Below, piece by piece: positions 1 through 28,590 of a stretch of DNA of 28,590 bases. Position 1 is the stretch's first letter; each line of letters starts with the position of its first letter. Below the pieces are notes generated by a model. That model ran no database searches. It was not told the DNA's origin and saw only the letters and a program-made list of their open reading frames with translations. The DNA is from a virus, in the IMG/VR virus record IMGVR_UViG_3300035162_000149, positions 1-28,590 of that record. One strand, given 5' to 3'. The translations under genes were made by a program, and so were the position numbers.

Positions 1-41
1 CTAAGTTAAAGTCCATCCCAATGTGGAGTGTACCACTATCG
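1..41. repeat. Terminal overlap, left copy
   Basis: The first 41 bases match 28550-28590 with one difference (A at 8, G at 28557). On the minus strand this is TTT versus TTC in the MDFN motif of terL, so it is synonymous. It joins the two ends of the contig in frame, which shows a circular or terminally redundant map. The mismatch suggests two sequence variants in the sample rather than a simple assembler k-mer duplication. Confidence 0.93.
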
Positions 42-724
42 TCATCAATCGCCAATACAGAGTCCTCGCGGCTAAATCCGTAATAGATCAGTCCTTGATA
101 AGTTACAAACTCAGCCTCATATTCTTGCTTAAATGTTCGCTCGTCTAAGTCAGACCTTGCAGCCTCTATTTCTTCTTGCGGTACGTTGCCACCATCGAGA
201 GTTGTATATTGAAAGGACTCCCAATCATCTGCGCCATCTTTACTTCTAACCCACAGATCATAGAAGTGATTCCTTCCTTTAGGTGTACCAATAAAAAGCG
301 CACCCCCTTTCCTGTCACTTAGTGAAGCCCTGCATACTTCGTACCAAGTCTCTGGGCGCATATCTGCAAACTCGTCAAGCACGATATAATCTAAAGCCCT
401 TCCTCGCAGGTTGTTTGGCTTCTCTGCGCCCTTTAAGGCTATGTATGATCCGTTGATTAGCTTAATAGTCAGAGAAGTTTCGTTAGTCTTGGCAATGTAC
501 TCTTGTGGAATTGTATTGATTAGCATGTTCCAACAGATTTCTTTTGCCGCCCCGTATGTTGGAGCCACGTACCAGATGTTTTTATTGTGGCCCGATATAG
601 CCGCCCTAAGCAGCGCAGCAGTAGCAGTAAAGGTTTTTCCAAATCGCCTGCCAGCAACAACAGAAACAAAACGAGCCTTAGATAAAAATATCTCAGACTG
701 CGGCTTTGTTAATTGCATCTGCAT
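1..724 (-). CDS. terL: Terminase large subunit, N-terminal ATPase part (gene continues at 28590)
   Basis: This is the packaging motor ATPase that drives DNA into the prohead with TerS and portal. The sequence encodes a Walker A motif GRRFGKT (residues 25-31), a Walker B motif ending VLDE (D117, E118) and a downstream IGTPKGR stretch typical of the terminase coupling region. The frame stays open to the left edge and continues at the right edge through the 41-base overlap. The joined gene runs 724 to 1 and then 28549 to 28053, giving 406 residues, a normal TerL length. ATG at 724 and ATG at 718 are both possible starts. Both lie inside the end of TerS, which stops at 693, so translation is probably coupled. 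The nuclease half is listed separately at 28053-28590. Confidence 0.95.
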   Translation of the reverse strand, partial: MQMQLTKPQSEIFLSKARFVSVVAGRRFGKTFTATAALLRAAISGHNKNIWYVAPTYGAAKEICWNMLINTIPQEYIAKTNETSLTIKLINGSYIALKGAEKPNNLRGRALDYIVLDEFADMRPETWYEVCRASLSDRKGGALFIGTPKGRNHFYDLWVRSKDGADDWESFQYTTLDGGNVPQEEIEAARSDLDERTFKQEYEAEFVTYQGLIYYGFSREDSVLAIDDDSGTLHIGMDFNL

Positions 725-1055
725 CCACAATTATATTTATTGGGGGTATCTCTTTAACTGGCTCAATGTATTCGTCACCCCAAGATTCTCGATCTCTTTT
801 CTTTAGGTAAAAAATAATAGAGGTAGTGTCGCCATCGATTGCCTTTTTATATAGCGCATTGGCAACATCATGAATACCTTCGCTCCTTCCCTTTTTTATA
901 GCCTCTGAAAACTCTGGAAACTCTTTCTGGCGCTCGTATATTGTAGCATCACTTACACCAAGGCAATGAGCTATCTGTGTAACCGTAAGCCCTTTGGAAG
1001 CCATCTCGCGAGCTTTAGAGCATGTTGACTCGTCAGGTATCCATTTAGGTCGCAT
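693..1055 (-). CDS. terS: Terminase small subunit
   Basis: A 120-residue protein that probably recognises phage DNA and hands it to TerL. Residues about 18-45 form a helix-turn-helix (GLTVTQIAHCLGVSDATIYE), as in homeodomain-like TerS proteins, followed by a charged helical region. It sits directly upstream of terL, whose start overlaps its 3' end by about 30 bases. Its ATG overlaps the stop of the preceding gene as TAATG, with GAGG just upstream. Family assignment rests on the HTH, the size and the position before an unmistakable terL. Confidence 0.85.
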   Translation of the reverse strand: MRPKWIPDESTCSKAREMASKGLTVTQIAHCLGVSDATIYERQKEFPEFSEAIKKGRSEGIHDVANALYKKAIDGDTTSIIFYLKKRDRESWGDEYIEPVKEIPPINIIVDADAINKAAV

Positions 1056-1306
1056 TAAACCTCAGTGCCGAATAATTCATCGGCAGTTAGTAACGGTTTT
1101 TCTTGTTCAAAATGTTTAACTTCAGTTATTTCTTCAATTTGCTCTGTGACAGACGCGCACCAGTCAGAAAGGGCTTCGCGCACTTGATTTCGCTGAACAT
1201 CAGTTTCCATCAATGAATCAATAATAGCGTCAAACTGGGAAAGGTAATTTTTTAGCTCAAAAAATAGACATTCATCTATATGCGAAGTTATTTGCAAAGA
1301 GTTCAT
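1055..1306 (-). CDS. Unknown acidic protein, first gene of the terminase operon
   Basis: An 83-residue acidic protein starting MNSLQITSHI and ending in LFGTEV. I do not recognise it. It looks helical, with no membrane segment or metal-binding motif. The ATG at 1306 is preferred over an upstream in-frame TTG at 1318. Its ribosome binding site is weak (GGTGCGGT). It is the first gene after promoter 1337-1366 and is coupled to terS by TAATG, so a packaging or regulatory role is possible but unproven. Confidence 0.7.
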   Translation of the reverse strand: MNSLQITSHIDECLFFELKNYLSQFDAIIDSLMETDVQRNQVREALSDWCASVTEQIEEITEVKHFEQEKPLLTADELFGTEV

Positions 1307-1336
1307 ACCGCACCGCAAAGTGTAATTAGTTACGGT

Positions 1337-1366
1337 ATTGTAGCGGGTTTTAAACGTAAGTGTAAA
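1337..1366 (-). promoter_or_regulatory. Promoter for the terminase/late operon
   Basis: Reading leftwards, TTTACA (1366-1361) is followed after 18 bases by TACAAT (1342-1337). These match the sigma-70 -35 and -10 boxes at 5 of 6 positions each. The predicted start near 1330 leaves a short leader before the gene starting at 1306. It shares its TTTAC -35 core with four other promoter-like sites in this phage. Confidence 0.6.
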
Positions 1367-1435
1367 CTAGTTAAGGTCTTGCACCGCCACAGCCAGCAGC
1401 GAAGTCACTACAAAAATAATCATATAAATAATCAC
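1367..1435 (-). CDS. Possible 22-residue membrane peptide
   Basis: A very short frame from GTG (1435) to TAG (1367). The AGAGG ribosome binding site at 1445-1441 is well placed. The product, MIIYMIIFVVTSLLAVAVQDLN, is almost wholly hydrophobic, so it would be a single membrane helix. A TACAAT box at 1471-1466 could serve as its -10. It ends one base before the -35 box of the terminase promoter. Frames this short arise by chance; the ribosome site and hydrophobic pattern are the only support. Confidence 0.35.
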   Translation of the reverse strand: MIIYMIIFVVTSLLAVAVQDLN

Positions 1436-1516
1436 GGTTGCCTCTTTGTTAGTAAATAAAGGCGCATTGTAAAGACTATTATTTATGATTTGAAATGATT
1501 GGTTATTATTAGATAG

Positions 1517-1532
1517 ATACCATTTATGGTAT
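1517..1532. promoter_or_regulatory. Operator-like palindrome ATACCAT-TT-ATGGTAT
   Basis: A perfect 7-base inverted repeat separated by two bases, in AT-rich DNA upstream of the late operon. Its size and symmetry fit a dimeric repressor site. Which protein binds it is unknown; the small HTH protein at 6804-7013 is one candidate. Confidence 0.4.
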
Positions 1533-1558
1533 GTATAAATATAAATTAAGTGTGTATT

Positions 1559-1672
1559 GTAATAGGTAGCCCGTATCGGCTCCCCAGTGGGCTAGTCTGG
1601 GTCAAAAGGTCTAAGGGGAAACCTTGGCCTAAATGATCCGTTTCTGCCACCAGTGGATCAGGCTGGCAGGAG
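1559..1672. ncRNA. Structured element R1 (copy 1 of a duplicated intergenic fold)
   Basis: Helices seen directly: TAGCCC (1567-1572) with GGGCTA (1589-1594); AGGTC plus AAGG (1607-1616) with CCTT plus GGCCT (1622-1630) around a GGAAA loop; TGATCC (1634-1639) with GGATCA (1655-1660); CTGCCA (1644-1649) with TGGCAG (1664-1669). The last two interleave, giving either an H-type pseudoknot or two exclusive states. One T-G pair (1610/1627) is a wobble only in plus-strand RNA, slightly favouring that strand. It shares four blocks with the element at 6625-6759: GTAATAG (1559), CGTATCGG (1572), GGGCTA (1589) and GGGTCAA (1599). It is not a tRNA. Function and strand are unknown. Confidence 0.55.
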
Positions 1673-1734
1673 ACGCAACATGAGCGCTGGCAACAATATT
1701 ATAACCCCATACGAAATAAAATCTTGCAACCTTT

Positions 1735-1857
1735 TTATTTTTTACGCTTTTTTTTAACTTCTAAAAATTGTTGATTTGCATCTTCAATGCTAAGCCACGC
1801 TCCCCTAAAAAGAACAGCGGCAAACAAACCCAATATGGCAGAAAATATTATTTCCAT
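1735..1857 (-). CDS. Small membrane protein, 40 residues
   Basis: The frame starts with ATG at 1857, overlapping the stop of the preceding gene as TAATG, and ends TAA at 1735. The product begins with a hydrophobic helix (IIFSAILGLFAAVLF) and ends with a strongly basic tail (VKKKRKK), a typical N-out/C-in single-pass pattern. It is the last gene of the early operon. Function is unknown; a role in host membrane takeover or superinfection exclusion would be a guess. Confidence 0.6.
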   Translation of the reverse strand: MEIIFSAILGLFAAVLFRGAWLSIEDANQQFLEVKKKRKK

Positions 1858-2219
1858 TACTGCCCCGCTTCATAGCCAGCAAAAGTTTCTTCCTGAGCGT
1901 CGTTAACTTTATCAAAAGACTGTTGTACCATTTCCCTCAAGTGGCCCTCAAGATATAAATAGATATCACCTCTAATAATATTAGATAACAATGAGTCATC
2001 AGAGAAATCATAAATTCGTTGGATAAATTCACGCTGATTGATAATAATCGGCGGCAATATATCATCCCACCAACTTTCTGCGTTCATCAGAAATTTAAAG
2101 CAAATTATATCTTTAAAGCAATCGTTACATTCGAGTATGTCTCCAGTCCAGCCACTTGTTACATTTTTATAACTTGCAACCATTTCATCAAGTTGATCTT
2201 GAAACTTTGAAATGCTCAT
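1857..2219 (-). CDS. Unknown early protein, 120 residues
   Basis: An acidic protein starting MSISKFQDQL, rich in aromatic residues (GWTGD, ESWWDD) with two cysteines in ECNDC. I do not recognise the family. ATG at 2219 overlaps the stop of the upstream gene as TAATG and has GGGGGTG just before it, so it is chosen over the in-frame GTG at 2225. It is translationally coupled to small genes on both sides. Confidence 0.7.
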   Translation of the reverse strand: MSISKFQDQLDEMVASYKNVTSGWTGDILECNDCFKDIICFKFLMNAESWWDDILPPIIINQREFIQRIYDFSDDSLLSNIIRGDIYLYLEGHLREMVQQSFDKVNDAQEETFAGYEAGQ

Positions 2220-2383
2220 TAACACACCCCCAAATTAATGCAGTCGTTATAGCTCATTGTTGAGACAGTGACATAAAGCAAAAATAATATGATGCTTAAC
2301 GCAGCAAGCCTAATGCTTTCGGCACGTTTTTTGCACGCTATTTTGTTTTTAAATTCGTCAATTTTGTACGGATGGTTAATCAT
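2219..2383 (-). CDS. Small single-pass membrane protein, 54 residues
   Basis: The start ATG at 2383 overlaps the stop of the preceding gene (ATGA) and has a strong GGAGG seven bases upstream. The N-terminal half is basic and hydrophilic; the C-terminal half holds one membrane helix (LAALSIILFLLYVTVSTM) followed by a short tail with two cysteines. No family is recognised. Confidence 0.65.
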   Translation of the reverse strand: MINHPYKIDEFKNKIACKKRAESIRLAALSIILFLLYVTVSTMSYNDCINLGVC

Positions 2384-2604
2384 GCTATTGCCTCCACAGT
2401 GTTGCAGCCGTAACCGTTGTTCCAAAGATGCTCTTCAAGAGAACCAATACCTGATGCGGTCATGTGGCTTTTTATGAACTGGCTAACAGTTTCTGTAGAC
2501 CCCACCTCATTCAAGTATTCTTTAATCATATTAGCGTCAACTTCTACGGCATAGCTGACGCGAACTTTTTGCATTTTGGTTTTATACATTTTGGCTTGTG
2601 ACAT
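2380..2604 (-). CDS. Unknown basic early protein, 74 residues
   Basis: A small protein starting MSQAKMYKTKMQ, with a basic N-terminus and a C-terminal half rich in short helices (EYLNEVGSTETVSQFI). The ATG at 2604 is preceded by AAAGGG at good spacing, so the in-frame extension up to 2640 is not used. It is the first gene after promoter 2637-2665. The strand-helix-helix layout resembles small ribbon-helix-helix regulators (VRVSYAVEVDANMIKEYL), but that is a weak impression only. Confidence 0.6.
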   Translation of the reverse strand: MSQAKMYKTKMQKVRVSYAVEVDANMIKEYLNEVGSTETVSQFIKSHMTASGIGSLEEHLWNNGYGCNTVEAIA

Positions 2605-2636
2605 TTTAATACCCTTTGTTTTTTGATTGAGATATA

Positions 2637-2665
2637 ACAATAAACGATCTACTCACTAAAGTAAA
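2637..2665 (-). promoter_or_regulatory. Promoter for the 2604-1735 operon
   Basis: Leftward TTTACT (2665-2660), 17-base spacer, TATTGT (2642-2637), followed by a leader into the ATG at 2604. The extended box GTTTACTTT is identical to those at 8790 and 6794. The surrounding gap 2641-2791 is very AT-rich and contains further TATAAT-like hexamers but no gene that I can support. Confidence 0.5.
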
Positions 2666-2791
2666 CTTTTATGTATACAATAATCATGGTTTTTATATAA
2701 TATAATAGAATAAAAACAAAATGCTTATAACGTTTTATACACATAGCAAAAATATGTACATATAAACGCAAAATATAAACACTTTACTGCG

Positions 2792-3223
2792 CTAGATCTC
2801 ACCTATTCGCCATTCTTGATTTTTTATCTGTTTTTTTAGGTCTCTAGCAAACTGGATCACTTCCTCTCGCTTAAACTTGGGCGACGGCCTCCAAGCTAGT
2901 TTTTGCATAGCTCTTATTCTCCTTACGCCATACATATCCTCCATGTATATCCTATATGCTTCTTGTATTTTGGTGGTTCGCATACCATACAAGTTGCAAT
3001 TAGCACATTGTGGGTTCAGATTCTCTTCGAAAAGTTTAAACACTAAATGCTTTCGGGAGTAAAAATGACCGCCTTGCATTTTCTTATAATGATCTATTTT
3101 GCCGCAGGTAACGCACTGGCAGTATCCGTTTTCATCACTTGCTTTTAGTCTTACCAATCGTTGCAATAGCTTTGCCGCCTTCTCGACCTCTTGCGCTACA
3201 GTTGTCTTTTTACGAGCCGCCAT
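2792..3223 (-). CDS. ninG: NinG/Rap-like recombination nuclease
   Basis: A 143-residue relative of lambda NinG (Rap), which cleaves branched recombination intermediates such as Holliday junctions and D-loops. The sequence has two cysteine pairs, C37-V-T-C40 and C73-A-N-C76, framing GGHFYSRK (H53), the layout of the NinG zinc and HNH-like core. N- and C-terminal stretches are basic. It overlaps the upstream DUF3310 gene by 14 bases and is the last gene of the recombination cluster. It is shorter than lambda NinG (about 200 residues) but keeps the recognisable core. Confidence 0.85.
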   Translation of the reverse strand: MAARKKTTVAQEVEKAAKLLQRLVRLKASDENGYCQCVTCGKIDHYKKMQGGHFYSRKHLVFKLFEENLNPQCANCNLYGMRTTKIQEAYRIYMEDMYGVRRIRAMQKLAWRPSPKFKREEVIQFARDLKKQIKNQEWRIGEI

Positions 3224-3428
3224 TTTCTAACTCTTCTTGTATCAAAAAATCACAGTAGTGTTTTATTTTACGCAGATCTTCAACGCCACCTTTATCACGC
3301 CACCTAGTTATATACTTAACAATCGAACCTTCACAAAATCCAAGTTTATTAGCCATAATGTATTCGATCGGTTGATGCTTTTTACTTGAATAATGATCGC
3401 CGCCTATTTGAGTATTTATTGCTTTCAT
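3210..3428 (-). CDS. DUF3310 family protein
   Basis: A 72-residue protein with the signature of the DUF3310 family: GGDHY near the N-terminus, QPIEYI, then FCEGSIVKYITRWRDKGGVEDLRKIKHY. The family is widespread in phages and sometimes annotated as nucleotide kinase-related, but its function is not established. The start ATG overlaps the stop of the zinc-ribbon gene (ATGA) with AAAGGAG upstream. Family call is strong; role unknown. Confidence 0.85.
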   Translation of the reverse strand: MKAINTQIGGDHYSSKKHQPIEYIMANKLGFCEGSIVKYITRWRDKGGVEDLRKIKHYCDFLIQEELENGGS

Positions 3429-3598
3429 TCACTGTCTCCTTTAACAATTATTTCGCGTAGATTTTCCAAATCGCAAACAGGGCAAATACCATACGCGCAA
3501 TCATCATCGCCCAACCAGTATTCGAGAGTGTGGCCGCAATTACAGAACAGCTTTTTAATAGTGCTTAACCGAGTTGGCAGTTCGATAACATTGCTCAC
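3425..3598 (-). CDS. Small zinc-ribbon protein, 57 residues
   Basis: The gene runs from GTG at 3598, overlapping the metallophosphoesterase stop as GTGA, to TGA at 3425. The product contains C19-N-C21 and C39-P-V-C42, plus C34, a likely zinc ribbon. Aromatic and acidic residues (EYWLGDDD) lie between the pairs. Position among ninB, the phosphoesterase and ninG suggests a part in nucleic-acid transactions. The exact function is unknown. Confidence 0.7.
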   Translation of the reverse strand: MSNVIELPTRLSTIKKLFCNCGHTLEYWLGDDDCAYGICPVCDLENLREIIVKGDSE

Positions 3599-4764
3599 TT
3601 GCTCACCTTAATTTTTACTCGCGAATCTTCCCCGCTGTCTTTGTGATAAACGACAGCAGTCATCGATCTCTCAGCACCATATCCTGAGTCACTGTGCCAT
3701 TGATCTGTTGACGTAAGTGACCCCCAGCTACTAAAGAGCATAGAGCCATATTCTCGCTCAACATGATGATGAATATGCCCCATGTGACAATATCTATTTT
3801 TACTCTGCGCCCACTCATCATCAAGATTTTTTATTACCGCTTGCAAAATCTGCTCTGGCTTTATTTTATCTCCGTGATGAAAAACAAAAAGGTTATTGTG
3901 CCACTGGTAATGAATAAATTTAGAATAATTTGGCAGCACGCTTACACGCTTTTCTTTTTTATAAAGCAAATCAACGCAGCTAGATAAGTGACAAGCCATG
4001 TCTGAGTCGTGATTCCCTCTTACATTTATTACTACAACATCTTTATGCGTTTCTAACATTTTATCGATTAATATCTGAAACAAACGACCTGCTAGTTTAA
4101 ATGTCTTACCAATGCGAGTATCTACATCTACCCTAGTTCCTGCTGTAGTTTCGTTTTTGCTGCTATCTGCGTGAAAAAAATCTCCTACATTTAGCAATAC
4201 ACCAACCTCTGCATCGCCTACACGCTTAGATAATCTTTCGGTTGCATCAATTAATATTTTCGTAGCTATTTTTACATCCCAGTCATCGTCATCCATTTTT
4301 GTCTCTGAATCGGCCAGCATTCCAAAGTGATGATCGCCGATTATATAAATAGCTAAATAATCTGAGTTAATTTTCGAAGGAGCCTTAGCTGGTCTTTTTA
4401 GCCCGTCAAGCTCATCAGTGAGACCATCAACGACTGCTTGAACTTTTTCTCTTATATCATGCTTTTGCGGCTCTTGTATAACCCATTGCAAAGCAACTGA
4501 ACCATCATCTTTGTAAGCCGTTGATATTCTTTTAGCGTCAAAACCTTCGGCTGTCTGATGAACTAAATCTCGGTGCGGTGATACTCCTTGACTTGCTGCT
4601 GTTTTTTCTAAACGGATAAGCATCGTATCAACCGCACGCCTGCTGCAACCTAGAGCTTTTGACGCTTTGTTAGCCGATCCATTATTAATAACTGCATCTA
4701 ATACTTGATGATGCCTTTCAGTTTTTGCAAATTGTTTTAGTACCCTCGGATCGATCTTACTCAC
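3595..4764 (-). CDS. Calcineurin-like metallophosphoesterase with N-terminal HTH
   Basis: A 389-residue protein with two parts. Residues about 1-70 contain a helix-turn-helix-like segment (NKASKALGCSRRAVDTMLIRLEK). From about residue 138 lies a metallophosphoesterase domain with its metal ligands: D144-H-H, a GDFFH motif, G250-N-H-D253, a later HHGD and G329-H-I-H332. This arrangement is related to Mre11/SbcD-type nucleases and other phage phosphoesterases. A DNA-end processing role fits the recombination neighbours, but the substrate is not shown. The start is GTG at 4764, overlapping the ninB stop as TAGTG with AGGAGG just upstream, rather than the longer frame to 4845. Confidence 0.85.
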   Translation of the reverse strand: MSKIDPRVLKQFAKTERHHQVLDAVINNGSANKASKALGCSRRAVDTMLIRLEKTAASQGVSPHRDLVHQTAEGFDAKRISTAYKDDGSVALQWVIQEPQKHDIREKVQAVVDGLTDELDGLKRPAKAPSKINSDYLAIYIIGDHHFGMLADSETKMDDDDWDVKIATKILIDATERLSKRVGDAEVGVLLNVGDFFHADSSKNETTAGTRVDVDTRIGKTFKLAGRLFQILIDKMLETHKDVVVINVRGNHDSDMACHLSSCVDLLYKKEKRVSVLPNYSKFIHYQWHNNLFVFHHGDKIKPEQILQAVIKNLDDEWAQSKNRYCHMGHIHHHVEREYGSMLFSSWGSLTSTDQWHSDSGYGAERSMTAVVYHKDSGEDSRVKIKVSK

Positions 4765-5222
4765 TATGCCTCCTGCTGGGCTTGAAGTTCGGCATACTCG
4801 CTGTCTGCGGGTATTGATAACCGAATGCCCTGCTTGATAGCCCAATGATAGACGTTATCAAGAAAGTGTACAAACTCGCCTTTTGTAAGTGTACTAGTTC
4901 TTTTTACTTGATCAGAAATTTTCTGGTTACCAATCGAGTAGCAACAAGTTCCTAAAAATCGTTGTTTAAGCCAGAGCTTCCAGACATCGGCAGGTTCTTC
5001 GTGGTGAATCTTATGTCCTTTTTTTTCCATTTCTTTCGCTATTTCCCTGTACCAAATATGTGACATAGCGTTTTGGCTTAGACTTCTAGGGTTTTGATAA
5101 GGTTCTAATTTAACGACCATCGGAACTTGGTAGTCCCAGCCATCCATTCGCTTTAGTATGAAGGGTAACTTTTTCTCTAGCTCCTGACTGCTGCCGACTT
5201 TAACGTGGTCGCCCTGCGTCAC
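4764..5222 (-). CDS. ninB: NinB-like recombination mediator
   Basis: A 152-residue homologue of lambda NinB (Orf), a DNA-binding mediator that helps load recombination proteins on SSB-covered single strands. Family features are SLSQNAMSHIWYREIAKEME and the C-terminal TSTLTKGEFVHFLDNVYHW with final IPADSEY. The likely start is the GTG at 5222, which overlaps the upstream stop as GTGA and has GGGTGAA before it; a GTG at 5240 is also in frame. Downstream is the metallophosphoesterase. Confidence 0.85.
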   Translation of the reverse strand: MTQGDHVKVGSSQELEKKLPFILKRMDGWDYQVPMVVKLEPYQNPRSLSQNAMSHIWYREIAKEMEKKGHKIHHEEPADVWKLWLKQRFLGTCCYSIGNQKISDQVKRTSTLTKGEFVHFLDNVYHWAIKQGIRLSIPADSEYAELQAQQEA

Positions 5223-5536
5223 AGTTTCACCCGTAACCACTTAGCCATTATGCGTTCCGAATTAGTTTCAAGGTTAGAACGCGTGGCCACGCACTTTTGT
5301 GCTTCCGTATCTGATAAAAGGCTATTTTTAGTAAAACTACATGCTGGTTTTAACTGCTTGGGCGTACAGTATTGCGTACGGTACAGCCTACTTTTCATTG
5401 TTCTATATTTAATTATATCTCCGTTTAATTCGTTGCAAACTTTTACATAATCAGAAATTGTGTAAAATTTACCGTCTTCAAAAATTGAGTGTTCACCCTT
5501 AAATTCAACTAGCTTTTTATTATTTTTACTACGCAT
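5219..5536 (-). CDS. Unknown basic early protein, 105 residues
   Basis: A lysine/arginine-rich protein starting MRSKNNKKLV. Its middle part (YTISDYVKVCNELNGDIIKY) and RTMKSRLYRTQYC look like a DNA-binding or homing-type accessory fold, but I cannot place it. Four cysteines have no clear zinc spacing. It overlaps the upstream gene by 8 bases and the downstream ninB by 4, so it belongs to the replication/recombination operon. Confidence 0.65.
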   Translation of the reverse strand: MRSKNNKKLVEFKGEHSIFEDGKFYTISDYVKVCNELNGDIIKYRTMKSRLYRTQYCTPKQLKPACSFTKNSLLSDTEAQKCVATRSNLETNSERIMAKWLRVKL

Positions 5537-5900
5537 TTTTTAAATCTCCATCGTAATAAAATCCAAACTTTTGTAAATAAAAGTTTTTCATTAATGTTTT
5601 TTCTTCGTTTTCAAGCCAAGTTATATCAGTCATCTGCATATCAATGGACTTTGCCCTAATGCTCCCATTTTTACTAGACTTTTTAGCCATTGGTGAGCCG
5701 CCCTGATTTTGCGCCTTAGTCAACCAAAGATTGACAAAGCGTTTAATACCGCTTTTTGTCTTTCTCTTTGTAGGGTTAGCATCGCACCATGATTCCATAG
5801 CCATAAGCTCTTGGTGTACGTTGACTGCTGGAAAGGCTCTCTGCCAAGCGATTACATCTTTTTCTTCTGGCTGCCAATCTTCTTTAGTATTTAGTAGCAT
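5529..5900 (-). CDS. DnaT-like replication accessory protein
   Basis: A 123-residue protein with the conserved stretch found in DnaT-like and replisome-organiser C-termini: W-Q-R-A-F-P-A-V-N-V-H-Q-E-L, then ESWCDANPTKRKTKSGIKRFVNLWL and QGG. In related phages this segment helps load the host helicase. ATG at 5900 is chosen because it directly follows the stop of the nuclease gene; the longer in-frame extension to 5960 lies inside that gene. As no helicase or polymerase is encoded, this may be the main link to the host replisome. That role is inferred. Confidence 0.65.
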   Translation of the reverse strand: MLLNTKEDWQPEEKDVIAWQRAFPAVNVHQELMAMESWCDANPTKRKTKSGIKRFVNLWLTKAQNQGGSPMAKKSSKNGSIRAKSIDMQMTDITWLENEEKTLMKNFYLQKFGFYYDGDLKNA

Positions 5901-5901
5901 A

Positions 5902-6456
5902 TTATTCCCCGAATGCTTGTTGATATAGGTGAGTCTCAACCTTGTTAAAAAATAAATCAATAGACTCTAGCTCATTGTATTTCTTTTTGCCTCCATCTTC
6001 TCGCTCAATAAGGCCATCTGAGTTCTGCCCTTTTCTTTTTATCTGACAGGTATCCCAGTAATCCGATTTCCTGCACCAGCCCATAAACTTTACATTAGTC
6101 GCCAGCTTCTCTCCTTTCGGAATAAGAACACTAGCAAAAACATAATAGTGACAAGGGTAATCCCTTTGGTACAGGTTGACGTGAGTATCGTAGCTTGGCA
6201 AACATTCAACAGTTCTTTGCTTGGCTTTTAAGTCAACAGTGGCTCTGCCTATCTTAAAGTCGAAATGATAGCTCGTAGCTGCTGTGTATTCATGCTCTAA
6301 AAAACGATCACTTAAAGCGCCTTTAAAAAGCAGTTCAGCAAGGTTTCCAGCGTATTGACCTGAACCATTATCTAACATCGTCTTGCCGTTAAATGCTTTG
6401 TTGGTCGCCATCTCTAACGCTTTTTTGTGATTAGCTTCAGTTGGAACTAATATCAT
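5902..6456 (-). CDS. PD-(D/E)XK-like nuclease
   Basis: A 184-residue protein with a probable PD-(D/E)XK active site: E41, D66 (HFDF), then D75-L-K77, followed by KQRT. Such folds make restriction-like or recombination endonucleases; the substrate here is unknown. ATG at 6456 has AGAGG five bases upstream, so I prefer it over an in-frame TTG at 6489. It is the first gene after promoter 6566-6593 and the structured element at 6625-6759, and heads the replication/recombination operon. Confidence 0.65.
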   Translation of the reverse strand: MILVPTEANHKKALEMATNKAFNGKTMLDNGSGQYAGNLAELLFKGALSDRFLEHEYTAATSYHFDFKIGRATVDLKAKQRTVECLPSYDTHVNLYQRDYPCHYYVFASVLIPKGEKLATNVKFMGWCRKSDYWDTCQIKRKGQNSDGLIEREDGGKKKYNELESIDLFFNKVETHLYQQAFGE

Positions 6457-6565
6457 CTGAACCTCTTTTGTTCTCCTATGGCTCGGCAAGCCTCGCCCGA
6501 TAAAGTTAGTAAATATGTTTCTTATAATTTTCTTTTGTTACTTTTAGCAACGTTTATTAAAGATG

Positions 6566-6593
6566 ATTAAACCCTTTTACTACAAATAGTAAA
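6566..6593 (-). promoter_or_regulatory. Promoter with overlapping operator palindrome
   Basis: Leftward TTTACT (6593-6588), 16-base spacer, TTTAAT (6571-6566). The -35 is one arm of a perfect inverted repeat, TTTACTA-CAAA-TAGTAAA (6576-6593). A protein bound there would block RNA polymerase, so this promoter is probably repressible. It would drive the nuclease, DnaT-like protein, NinB and following genes. Confidence 0.55.
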
Positions 6594-6624
6594 TTTACGA
6601 TCAAAGGGCTAAAGCAACTTTGCG

Positions 6625-6759
6625 GTAATAGTTGTGATCGTATCGGATATCCAACCTATCCTTTAATAACTACCGAGTTATCGCAGGGGCTATGCACTGG
6701 AGGGTCAACCACGCTCTGACGTTTTATTTAAGGAGTCCGTCAGCCTCTAGCCCGATCAC
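6625..6759. ncRNA. Structured element R2 (copy 2 of the duplicated intergenic fold)
   Basis: Helices seen directly: GTGATC (6634-6639) with GATCAC (6754-6759); GGATA (6645-6649) with TATCC (6657-6661); ATAACT (6666-6671) with AGTTAT (6676-6681) around a 4-base loop; GGGCTA (6687-6692) with TAGCCC (6748-6753); GAGG (6700-6703) with CCTC (6744-6747); CTGACG (6716-6721) with CGTCAG (6738-6743). All 22 bases from 6738 to 6759 are paired, in register, with four separate upstream segments, so the fold is a closed multi-branch junction. If transcribed leftwards from promoter 6794-6766 the predicted +1 is 6759, the first base of the closing helix. Blocks shared with 1559-1672 are GTAATAG (6625), CGTATCGG (6639), GGGCTA (6687) and GGGTCAA (6702). 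Function unknown. Confidence 0.6.
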
Positions 6760-6765
6760 TTTTAA

Positions 6766-6794
6766 ACTTTAATTGATTTTAGCTACAAAGTAAA
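6766..6794 (-). promoter_or_regulatory. Promoter in front of structured element R2
   Basis: Leftward TTTACT (6794-6789), 17-base spacer, TAAAGT (6771-6766). The -35 context GGTTTACTTTGTAG matches the site at 8790 (GGTTTACTTTATAG) at 13 of 14 bases. The predicted transcript start, 6759, coincides with the outermost helix of the R2 fold. Confidence 0.55.
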
Positions 6795-6803
6795 CCTATG
6801 TGT

Positions 6804-7013
6804 CTATTTATAACCAAATGCTATAAAAGCGTTAATTGTTATGCCTAAAGCAGAACATAACAACTGAACTGTATGTATCTTTAAGTTCTTGCTTTTACGC
6901 CATCGCAATACCTGCTGGGGTGAAGTTTTAGCTATATTGGCAAGCTGTCGGCTGTTTACGCCTTTGTTGTTTTGTGCCGCTATTAGGCATTTTCCTGTAT
7001 CGATTAATTCCAT
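6804..7013 (-). CDS. Small Cro/CI-type HTH regulator
   Basis: A 69-residue protein made almost entirely of an XRE-like helix-turn-helix: SRQLANIAKTSPQQVLRWRK (residues 21-40) followed by a helix IHTVQLLCSALG. It resembles Cro-like or host-type transcription regulators and could bind the TTTACT-containing operators around it. It is transcribed leftwards after the SSB gene and ends just before promoter 6794. AAGGG lies eight bases upstream of the ATG. With no integrase present it need not be a lysogeny repressor; timing of early genes is as likely. Confidence 0.75.
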   Translation of the reverse strand: MELIDTGKCLIAAQNNKGVNSRQLANIAKTSPQQVLRWRKSKNLKIHTVQLLCSALGITINAFIAFGYK

Positions 7014-7076
7014 GATCTTAACCCTTGTGATATATTAATTAGGCGGGTTCCCCCGACTCGCAACCTCCTATGGTTT

Positions 7077-7099
7077 GCCCCCCGAAAGGGGGGCTTTTT
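7077..7099 (+). terminator. Strong rightward intrinsic terminator
   Basis: GCCCCCC (7077-7083), GAAA loop, GGGGGGC (7088-7094), then TTTTT (7095-7099). The U-tract exists only for plus-strand transcription; on the minus strand the hairpin is followed by AAACC. It therefore faces opposite to every gene and implies a rightward transcript antisense to the HTH gene. Confidence 0.7.
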
Positions 7100-7103
7100 A
7101 AGC

Positions 7104-7400
7104 CTAGAACGGTATATCTTCATCCAACTGTTCAATACTCATATCGGCCTGCTTGGCAGGCGCTGCTGCCTGACCATCGGTAAAGAACACCTTCACATTA
7201 CCAAGAATAGGGGTTTGCACATTAGCTTCGCGCTCTTCTTTGGTTGTTGACTGGCTGATAAATCCATTGTTCTCATACTGATCCTGCTGCTCCGTATCCA
7301 CAAAGGTGGTCAGGTCAAGGTAAGTACCTTTGGCCCCTTTATACAGCCGAGACTTGTCAATCTTGGTCACGTCGATTCGTACAGATAATCCTACTTTCAT
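7104..7400 (-). CDS. ssb: Single-stranded DNA-binding protein (SSB-like)
   Basis: A 98-residue protein with a beta-rich body (LSVRIDVTKIDKSRLYKG, YLDLTTF, TPILGNVKVFF) and an acidic tail ending DEDIPF (residues 93-98), the classic SSB tip that binds partner proteins. It overlaps the YqaJ exonuclease stop as ATGA and follows the annealing protein, a standard recombination trio. It is shorter than bacterial SSB, typical for a phage OB-fold version. The OB-fold is inferred from context and tail. Confidence 0.75.
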   Translation of the reverse strand: MKVGLSVRIDVTKIDKSRLYKGAKGTYLDLTTFVDTEQQDQYENNGFISQSTTKEEREANVQTPILGNVKVFFTDGQAAAPAKQADMSIEQLDEDIPF

Positions 7401-7996
7401 TTTAACTTCTCCACTTGGTTTAGTATTTCAGACACAGCCCCTTGGACTTCAATGGCTAGTTTTGCGATATATTCTTCATCGCGTTCAACCCGCACTAGAA
7501 CATGCGGCATTTCTGGATGGTAGGCAAAGAAGTCCCACCAATCACGTTTGGTAATCCACATACAGCCCTGAATCTGCTGCCAGTATTTCTTAACCCCGAC
7601 CTGCGGATCACGCAGATAGCTGACCATAGTTTTAGGGGCTGGGCATTTAATCTCTAACCCTCCCTGATCCAATATCAAACCATCAGGCGAACAGCCAAAC
7701 TCATAGCTAGTGTGTAGAATAAAGCCAGTCTCGATAACATCATTGCTAGATATAAACTCATACGCCTCCCTAGCTTCTGGCTCTAGCTCAGTGCCGCGCT
7801 GCATCCACTCTGTAATGTGGAACGGCTCAGATTGCCTTGTAAGGCGTTCTGCGATCAATTCATTGATGTACCCATCAGCAGAAGTGCTTGGCTTACCAGT
7901 TAGTGTTATTAGCTTGGAAAACATACTAGCGGATGGCCTGCCCAGTCTTGCAGCAAGCCATTCTGGTGATCCCTGCTCATGGTCTAAGATGATCAC
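7397..7996 (-). CDS. YqaJ-type recombination exonuclease
   Basis: A 199-residue relative of lambda exonuclease (YqaJ viral recombinase family), which resects double-stranded ends 5' to 3' to make substrate for the annealing protein. Visible motifs are RGTELEPEA (67-75), CSPDG with D105, and the catalytic E115-I-K117, then YWQQIQG. The start is GTG at 7996, overlapping the annealing-protein stop as GTGA with AGAGG upstream. It is translated with its Sak3 partner and the SSB-like protein. Confidence 0.92.
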   Translation of the reverse strand: MIILDHEQGSPEWLAARLGRPSASMFSKLITLTGKPSTSADGYINELIAERLTRQSEPFHITEWMQRGTELEPEAREAYEFISSNDVIETGFILHTSYEFGCSPDGLILDQGGLEIKCPAPKTMVSYLRDPQVGVKKYWQQIQGCMWITKRDWWDFFAYHPEMPHVLVRVERDEEYIAKLAIEVQGAVSEILNQVEKLK

Positions 7997-8559
7997 TTCT
8001 TGGCCTCTAGTGCGGCAACAGCGCGATCAAAGTGCATCGCTAGAATCTGATCGACCGACCGAACCTTCAACCACTTGCAGAATTTCTCGCTGTCGGCACC
8101 AGTCTCATTAAGTAATTTTTTGATGGCGATTATCTGGTCGTCAGTGATAACTGCGTTCGCTATTACAGGGTTTATATCTTCACCTGCGTAGATGTAGTGA
8201 CCAAGCCCAAACATTGCGAAACATTTGACTAGACAGCGCATCTTGCTAGAGTTGATAGCAAACTTATCGGGGTTTGCGATAGCCTTATTGCGGTGATCCA
8301 TAACAGGAAGCCACATATGCCGCATCATCATCTGATCTTTCTCTGAGCCAGTATGTATATGGACTACGCAACTAATCTCAACTGTCCCTGTATCCTCGCA
8401 TTTATCCTCTTCGAAAGAGTAATGCAGGTCAGGATAATGCTCCATCATAGTGCCGTAAGCCCAAGCCCACGACAGATATGATAAGTTGCCTTTTTTCTCA
8501 ATATGCTGAGATACATCGATAGCAGATAGGGTTTGCCAGACTTCTTTAGATAAACTCAT
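7993..8559 (-). CDS. Sak3-type single-strand annealing protein (DUF1071)
   Basis: A 188-residue protein whose N-terminal half carries the DUF1071/Sak3 pattern: LSYLSWAWAYGTMMEHYPDLHYSF, then TGTVEISCVVHI and a central NPDKFAINSSKMRCLVKCFAMFGLGHYIYAGED. Sak3 proteins are a phage family grouped with Rad52-like annealers that pair complementary strands. The C-terminal third may bind partners. AGGAGG sits six bases upstream of its ATG, and it overlaps a small upstream gene by 14 bases. The YqaJ exonuclease follows directly, making a complete recombinase pair. Confidence 0.85.
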   Translation of the reverse strand: MSLSKEVWQTLSAIDVSQHIEKKGNLSYLSWAWAYGTMMEHYPDLHYSFEEDKCEDTGTVEISCVVHIHTGSEKDQMMMRHMWLPVMDHRNKAIANPDKFAINSSKMRCLVKCFAMFGLGHYIYAGEDINPVIANAVITDDQIIAIKKLLNETGADSEKFCKWLKVRSVDQILAMHFDRAVAALEAKK

Positions 8560-8725: not shown

Positions 8726-8761
8726 AATTGCCTCATACCCTGTTTTGTTAATTGAGGTTAA

Positions 8762-8790
8762 ATCTTAATCTATTTAAACTATAAAGTAAA
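8762..8790 (-). promoter_or_regulatory. Early promoter for the recombination operon
   Basis: Leftward TTTACT (8790-8785), 17-base spacer, TAAGAT (8767-8762); predicted start near 8755, 30 bases before the ATG at 8725. The -35 lies in GGTTTACTTTATAGTTTAAA, nearly the same as at 6795. It sits just past the late terminator, at the late/early boundary. Confidence 0.55.
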
Positions 8791-8811
8791 CCCTTTTGTT
8801 GATTAATGTGC

Positions 8812-8839
8812 AAAAAAAAGCCCCACGCTAGGCAGGGCT
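8812..8839 (-). terminator. Intrinsic terminator of the late operon
   Basis: Leftward AGCCCTGC (8839-8832), 5-base loop, then GTGGGGCT (8826-8819), with two G-U pairs, followed by a run of eight T. It lies about 20 bases after the endolysin stop, closing the virion and lysis block. Confidence 0.8.
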
Positions 8840-28053: not shown

Positions 28054-28590
28054 CAAGTCCACCTTGTCGGTTGGGGTGTAGCGTATTCCGTGCGAACAGG
28101 AAACAAGTATTCAACCAAGTAGCCAAGAGCGTCATTCATATGATCAAACCCATCTTCTTTGTTCGGAATGCTTGTTCCCTCTTTGTATGTCTGTCGCTCC
28201 AAACTCTTAATAGTGTGCTTGCATTTTGGGCTTACAAACAAATGCCGTCCACCATCACTCGACAGTAAACGACTATTCACAGCGTTGATACGATCCCTGA
28301 CCAATGCATGTGATTTCTTCGCCTTAACGCTGAATCCTGCGTTTTGTAAGATCGACAAATCTGTTCGACCACCAGCAGATGTTTTCCGCTGTCTTGATGC
28401 TGGGTCTGGATAGACAATTATATTGCGTCTAGGGTAGCGGCTTATTATCTCTGCAACCATTTCATCAGTGTTAGACCCGTACATGACTATCTCGTCAACG
28501 GCAATCAGCGTCCCGCCTTTACGAATACAGATAACGGCAGACATGGGGTCTAAGTTGAAGTCCATCCCAATGTGGAGTGTACCACTATCG
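28053..28590 (-). CDS. terL: Terminase large subunit, C-terminal nuclease part
   Basis: This part completes the gene starting at 724. It carries the RNase H-like headful nuclease: HIGMDFN (first metal aspartate), IIVYPDPASRQRKT (second) and DGFDHMNDALGYLVEYLF (third). The frame enters from the right edge in the overlap region (28550-28590) and ends TGA at 28055-28053, one base into the portal start. Together both parts form an intact 406-residue terminase. Confidence 0.95.
   Translation of the reverse strand, partial: DSGTLHIGMDFNLDPMSAVICIRKGGTLIAVDEIVMYGSNTDEMVAEIISRYPRRNIIVYPDPASRQRKTSAGGRTDLSILQNAGFSVKAKKSHALVRDRINAVNSRLLSSDGGRHLFVSPKCKHTIKSLERQTYKEGTSIPNKEDGFDHMNDALGYLVEYLFPVRTEYATPQPTRWT
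28550..28590. repeat. Terminal overlap, right copy
   Basis: The partner of bases 1-41 (40 of 41 identical). Joining the copies restores an uninterrupted terL frame and a unique length of 28,549 bases. Confidence 0.93.

Follow-up and report, generated by a model that had tools for sequence, protein, structure and literature searches.

The two main non-coding gaps of the virus record IMGVR_UViG_3300035162_000149 (28,590 nucleotides, analysed as a whole and called the window here) share a series of short blocks, and the question is what these gaps encode. A first-pass annotation, made from the letters alone, had read them as two copies of one structured element on the plus strand, at 1559-1672 and 6625-6759. 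The four blocks behind that reading were confirmed in common order and orientation, starting at 1559 and 6625 (GTAATAG), 1572 and 6639 (CGTATCGG), 1589 and 6687 (GGGCTA), and 1599 and 6702 (GGGTCAA), with start-to-start spacings of 13/14, 17/48 and 10/15 nucleotides. A chain of ordered exact blocks totalling 28 nucleotides arose in 20 of 20,000 dinucleotide shuffles, and a chain of equal length in 111 of 20,000 random pairs of segments from this genome. Taken alone, the block chain is unusual, being rare by chance, yet it is not decisive; it is the relatives that settle the question. As judged from sequence comparison, the gaps hold two RNA families not catalogued before, called element A and element B below, in a group of uncultivated marine phages.

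Two covarying RNA families on the minus strand

A pattern search of viral contigs returned 16 loci, the majority of them genuine relatives of A, and the sample was enlarged by further patterns and a terminase search to 213 sequences. Iterated profile searches of these sequences found A in 115 loci and B in 128, each in a single copy per locus. With the covariance models R1 (element A) and R2 (element B), the elements of the window were detected at expectation values (E) of 3.7e-20 and 2.2e-32, and searches of whole records never gave more than one A or more than one B per record. These many homologues and the dense compensatory changes described below bear out the earlier suggestion of a structured RNA. 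The following parts were delimited:

1566-1630, minus strand: core of element A, a three-way junction (d, a, b) with pseudoknot helix c and the linker GAUAC/GAAAC (covariation, R1)
1634-1692, minus strand: second A unit, upstream and in tandem, with the c helix TGATCC/GGATCA (structure descriptor, no site in the reversed control)
6633-6760, minus strand: P1-closed domain of element B, with P1, P2, P4, P8, P5 and the GX/YC hairpin (128 homologues, covariation)
6597-6632, minus strand: 3' part of element B, with the P6 pseudoknot strand and hairpin P7 (covariation)

The elements are larger than the limits first given to them: B reaches as far as about 6597, and A extends to near 1692.

In the A core, P1 is helix d (3-5 pairs), which encloses hairpins a and b, and the loop of b pairs with a 3' strand to form helix c. 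This 3' strand sits five nucleotides 3' of d, and the linker is GAAAC, GAUAC or GCAAC. When 48 distinct cores were parsed by hand, 821 pairs were Watson-Crick, 35 were G.U, none was A.C and 14 were other combinations; the count from the alignment agrees. Helix c occurs as TAGTCC/GGACTA, TAGCCC/GGGCTA, TGGTTC/GAACCA (relatives L038 and L185) and TGGCTC/GAGCCA (L227); even in highly divergent relatives, whose helix sequences differ, the architecture is preserved. Searched with a descriptor of it, 1.83 Mb of the relatives' contigs gave 100 sites, each a recognisable A unit, whereas the reversed control gave no site. The same descriptor finds two units in the window (1566-1630 and 1634-1692), so that A is here a tandem pair; tandem units are also present in a number of other lineages. 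The c helix of the upstream unit covaries across relatives (TGATCC/GGATCA, TGATCT/AGATCA and TGATGC/GCATCA). Both gaps had been described as rich in helices; on the true strand, the minimum-energy fold of A, computed with nested pairs only, is unremarkable (z 0.19), because the core is a pseudoknot.

The whole of B (6597-6760) is a multi-helix RNA closed by P1 and containing a pseudoknot. RNAalifold predicted 35 pairs in an alignment of 38 representative sequences in minus sense, with two-sided changes in 26 of them; with P6 and some added pairs, 95.4% of the cells are paired and 33 of 44 pairs show two-sided changes. The pseudoknot P6, formed by 6623-6627 with the P5 loop at 6671-6675, is paired in 98.9% of cells and changes on both sides in five of five pairs, and hairpin P7 (6602-6622) is paired in 96.2% with such changes in five of seven. 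None of 500 shuffles attained any of the five measures used, and sliding the partner strand cut pairing to 31-41%. Five A-bearing genomes with enough upstream sequence had no B at the strict threshold, yet where B should lie each carries a divergent form of it (E 9e-10 to 4e-5), in which helix P2, otherwise nearly invariant, and the P8 hairpin are altered on both sides. As these divergent elements were absent from model building, they confirm the fold of B independently.

The wobble pairs fix the strand. Read on the minus strand, the A cores hold 35 G.U against 0 A.C cells and B holds 82 against 6 (a count made with the P6 register shifted by one). Wobble pairs on the minus strand would be A.C mismatches on the plus strand, so the plus-strand reading of the first-pass annotation is the antisense of the RNA. 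That reading is ruled out by the asymmetry despite a better nested fold of A on the plus strand, and at nearly all loci A and B are sense with the flanking genes. The same counts bear on the other possibility raised earlier, that the gaps are DNA sites for replication or packaging which fold incidentally. The small terminase gene near A and the presence of one A and one B per genome would suit such sites; against them stand the 82:6 and 35:0 asymmetries, the crossing helices with many two-sided changes and the constant sense orientation. Given the homologues and the strong covariation, we regard DNA sites as extremely improbable.

The two elements are not copies of one another but families with different helices. 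Of the four blocks, CGTATCGG (in RNA sense CGAUAC/CGAAAC), GGGCTA and GGGTCAA are kept in both families; GTAATAG is conserved in neither, so that its match is due to chance. A and B nevertheless have a topology in common, in which the loop of a hairpin within a P1-closed junction pairs just 3' of P1. They also share, in order, the words UUGACCC, UAGCCC and CCGAUACG (CGAUAC), a chain found in 7 of 3,000 shuffles. The topology and the word chain suggest common descent. A strict circular permutation between A and B was also considered and rejected, as it did no better than the linear chain (18 of 3,000 shuffles circular, 7 of 3,000 linear).

Rfam 15 gave no match at the gathering threshold in the window or in four relatives, in agreement with the first-pass annotation, which had recognised no known RNA family here, and relaxed thresholds gave chance-level matches only. 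Against 50,697 phage records, blastn returned only chance matches for the element B region and a single unrelated match of 126 nucleotides for window positions 1-8000. Among 84,980 genomes of bacteria and archaea, a search by pattern produced 4 matches, none of which R2 matched convincingly, and a literature search limited to open-licence papers found no published description of A or B.

Placement of A and B among the early and late genes

The ends of the 28.6-kb record (1-41 and 28550-28590) overlap by 41 nucleotides at 98% identity, and the large terminase gene (terL) is divided between them, so the record is effectively a circularised phage genome. The minus strand codes for all recognised genes. 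In transcription order, the late part runs from the small terminase through large terminase, portal, scaffold, capsid and tail to holin and endolysin, and is followed by a single-strand annealing protein, a RecE-like exonuclease, a 98-aa protein, a cro-like regulator and then B. After B come early genes including NinB, a DNA-repair exonuclease and NinG, then the small acidic protein, A and again the small terminase. By terminase and portal the closest isolates, at 47-52% identity, are Pelagibacter phages and phage DSL-LC06; HTVC111P and HTVC202P (Pelagibacter phages) and DSL-LC06, which show this identity in portal and terminase, lack A and B. The neighbouring features are:

1337-1366, minus strand: conserved sigma70-like late promoter TTTACA-18-TACAAT, downstream of A
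1857-2225, minus strand: gene of a small, very acidic protein; in relatives 90-440 nucleotides upstream of A
6480-6497, minus strand: conserved hairpin GGCGAGGCUUGCCGAGCC, preceding the first early-operon gene and its AGGAG ribosome-binding site (by eye)
6576-6594, minus strand: small A+T-rich hairpin after B, of the TTTACT...AGTAAA type, with arms that vary in most B relatives (by eye)
6766-6794, minus strand: promoter-like TTTACT-17-TAAAGT directly upstream of B, within the repeat 6762-6818
6762-6818 and 8758-8814: promoter-like repeat (D2), two copies 72% identical, of which the first feeds B and the second precedes the recombination genes
8820-8838: late terminator, after which come the recombination genes and the promoter-like copy at 8758-8814

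Both elements are present at 41 loci; in every one of these they point the same way, and A follows 4.7-7.1 kb downstream. Four large records at first showed B without A; a divergent A was present at the expected place in one, and none was found in the other three.

In the window and in many relatives, about 45 nucleotides separate the end of the cro-like gene from B, and about 100-130 lie between B and the start of the opening gene of the next operon. The identity of this first gene varies among lineages, which ties B to the operon and not to one protein. The GGCGAGGCUUGCCGAGCC hairpin occurs in nearly all the B leaders listed, with a GGC/GCC to GGU/ACC change (by eye). In 17 of the 38 B representatives a TTTA[CT] box stands at -42/-41 from GGGCT, 17 nucleotides upstream of a weak -10-like box, a spacing that puts the predicted start at the first helix of B. 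Upstream sequences differ in other B lineages, some of which have divergent genes there. The flank lacks the TTTAC box in L002, L014, L118, L119, L123, L145, L159, L164 and L204, and flanks of this kind often hold a C/T-rich tract and short direct repeats, which suggests another promoter type. Between the genes of the 98-aa and cro-like proteins, a strong intrinsic-terminator-like hairpin, GCCCCCCGAAAGGGGGGC-TTTTT, was seen at 7075-7100 on the plus strand, antisense to all genes.

In most relatives A is preceded by a small membrane-protein gene and begins right at its stop codon or a short way beyond. Upstream of that gene, the acidic-protein gene (isoelectric point (pI) of the product 4.1-4.2) is present in 95 of the 99 A loci with enough sequence. 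The acidic family has no match in Pfam, PHROGs, PDB or BFVD, and its predicted structure is all-helical (pLDDT confidence score 83.5) and without significant structural match. It could be a nucleic-acid mimic. A role as a Q-like antiterminator was rejected, as there is neither a family match nor a significant structural match of the predicted model.

An intrinsic terminator follows A in 14 of 43 representatives, and its T-run begins 72-76 nucleotides after the element; on the tree of the acidic protein the terminator state switches about 11 times (at least 7 of them on well-supported branches) with unchanged spacing. A sigma70-like promoter lies downstream of A in 27 of 42 representatives, against 3 of 736 control windows. 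A TATAAT upstream of A was rejected as a conserved promoter, because in most relatives it falls within the codons that end the preceding gene (V-I-I-Y/F stop). Two further observations concern the stretch between A and the late promoter: a ATACCATNNATGGTAT-like palindrome at about 1509-1527, with related forms in other lineages, is a candidate operator, and a tiny hydrophobic open reading frame of about 18-21 aa (MIIFVVTSLLAVAVQDLN-like; about 1373-1429, minus strand) is present in most relatives.

Were A with its terminator, and B, stable small RNAs acting in trans on host or phage targets, the A element, hairpin and terminator would form a defined RNA of about 140-200 nucleotides in many lineages. 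This is very unlikely, as no conserved promoter was found upstream of A, where most relatives have protein-coding sequence all the way to the stop codon, and B has no terminator behind it.

Sensing of a ligand or protein, either riboswitch-like or as the target of a phage RNA-binding protein, would have A control the terminator behind it and B the early leader. The intrinsic terminator that roughly one lineage in three has at a fixed distance behind A, the conserved unpaired words UUGACCC, GAUAC and UUGGAUAU, and the acidic-protein gene that almost always adjoins A are in its favour, and H-type pseudoknot riboswitches with a terminator platform resemble A in many lineages, where a pseudoknot likewise precedes an intrinsic terminator at fixed distance. 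Unlike these, about two thirds of the A elements have no terminator, no Rfam riboswitch matches and no ligand is indicated; no alternative pairing common to A and the terminators was seen on inspection, and the divergent A elements have few invariant nucleotides. B, for its part, has no terminator nearby and lies about 100 nucleotides from the first ribosome-binding site, and a protein with a pI of about 4.1 is an improbable RNA binder. We consider sensing quite unlikely.

Possible control of transcription or of RNA decay

The explanation that we prefer, though tentatively and at a confidence that falls short of calling it probable, is that A and B are cis-acting transcription-control elements like HK022 put or lambda nut. 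The main reason for this choice is that a lambdoid phage offers a direct precedent (PMC9378689). B would be the 5' leader of an early transcript of about 5 kb that includes NinB and NinG, right after the cro-like gene, and A would lie just past the last stop codon of this transcript, ahead of the late promoters. We infer that both are transcribed. Each is a junction closed by a short helix and locked where the loop of a hairpin inside it pairs with the sequence directly 3' of the closing helix, and each may act on the very RNA polymerase from which it emerges. With B, early transcription would resist pausing or termination; A would set the read-through at the early/late boundary, where many relatives have a terminator 72-76 nucleotides downstream. 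The place of B after cro, its 5' helix at the predicted start and the fixed distance from A to the terminator are consistent with such control, as are the compensatory changes on the minus strand, the sense orientation at nearly all loci, the common order at 41 of 41 loci and the tie of B to the operon. On the same side, no N- or Q-like protein was recognised among the proteins scanned, although for small proteins the absence of a hidden Markov model match is weak evidence.

In HK022, the put RNAs are cis-acting structured phage RNAs, two per genome, that need no dedicated phage protein, and the 5' helix of putL starts at the start site of the early promoter (PMC9378689). The put RNA binds the zinc-binding domain of beta' and suppresses pausing and termination without a protein cofactor. 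HK022 putR lies after cro, and lambda nutR lies after cro and upstream of nin-type genes. B is likewise in the early transcript, after cro and at the predicted start, and so occupies the place of nutR; A is not so placed, being at the end of the early transcript, whereas both put sites are early. The structures differ as well: put has about 70 nucleotides in two simple stem-loops without a pseudoknot, whereas the A core has about 58-66 and B more than 120, both with covarying crossing helices, and R1 and R2 gave no match in HK022 at E<=5. In lambda, nut consists of boxA-boxB and is used with the N protein; B, with its more than 120 pseudoknotted nucleotides, is not a boxB hairpin.

Several further observations weigh against transcription control. 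The stretch from B to A shows no enrichment of intrinsic terminators in the sense strand (19 sense and 20 antisense in 35 genomes), the window has no intrinsic terminator after A, and neither have many lineages. The late genes have promoter-like sites of their own downstream of A, so that read-through may be unneeded, and a lasting antitermination by B would make A redundant. The folds, moreover, are unlike the two simple stem-loops of put.

The shared topology points to another known system. The flaviviral exonuclease-resistant RNA (xrRNA) blocks 5'-3' exonucleases and is a three-way junction with a loop-to-downstream pseudoknot, located in the 3' untranslated region and often in tandem (PMC5760640). 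The topology of A (d/a/b, with the b loop pairing to the 3' strand of c just 3' of d) matches that of class 1 xrRNA (three-way junction, L3-S4 pseudoknot). Class 1 xrRNAs also have conserved junction nucleotides and a second pairing, of the 5' end into the junction; no such 5'-end pairing was identified here, the 5' flank not having been analysed for covariation. The likeness is one of secondary-structure topology, and A and B are without Rfam match and come from a DNA phage. A role in RNA stability is the main rival, if on balance rather unlikely: B would shield the early mRNA at its 5' end, whereas A would block exonucleases near the 3' end or protect the RNA downstream, both of them mechanically through the ring-like fold. 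It would account for the location of B at the 5' end and of A right after the last stop codon of one transcript, for the tandem units in many lineages, and for divergent A elements that keep the fold while their helix sequences change; moreover, bacterial RNase J1 is blocked by a flaviviral xrRNA (PMC5760640). The model, however, presupposes that a 5' end threads a ring and that the host has a suitable nuclease such as RNase J. The strongly conserved loops of B suggest specific binding instead, and no precedent from a DNA phage was found in the literature searched. In its strictest form, with both elements as nuclease-resistant, xrRNA-like rings that bracket the early mRNA, protect its 5' end and define a stable 3' product, the proposal is unlikely.

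Whether they act on transcription, as we tentatively prefer, or on RNA decay, A and B are two strongly covarying RNA families that many uncultivated marine phages carry, with fixed places at either end of a single predicted transcript. They are short and separable elements, and they would enlarge the small set of RNA devices with which phages, without the help of a protein, direct the transcription of the host or the decay of RNA. If A were nuclease-resistant, a strategy of eukaryotic RNA viruses would exist in bacteriophages too.

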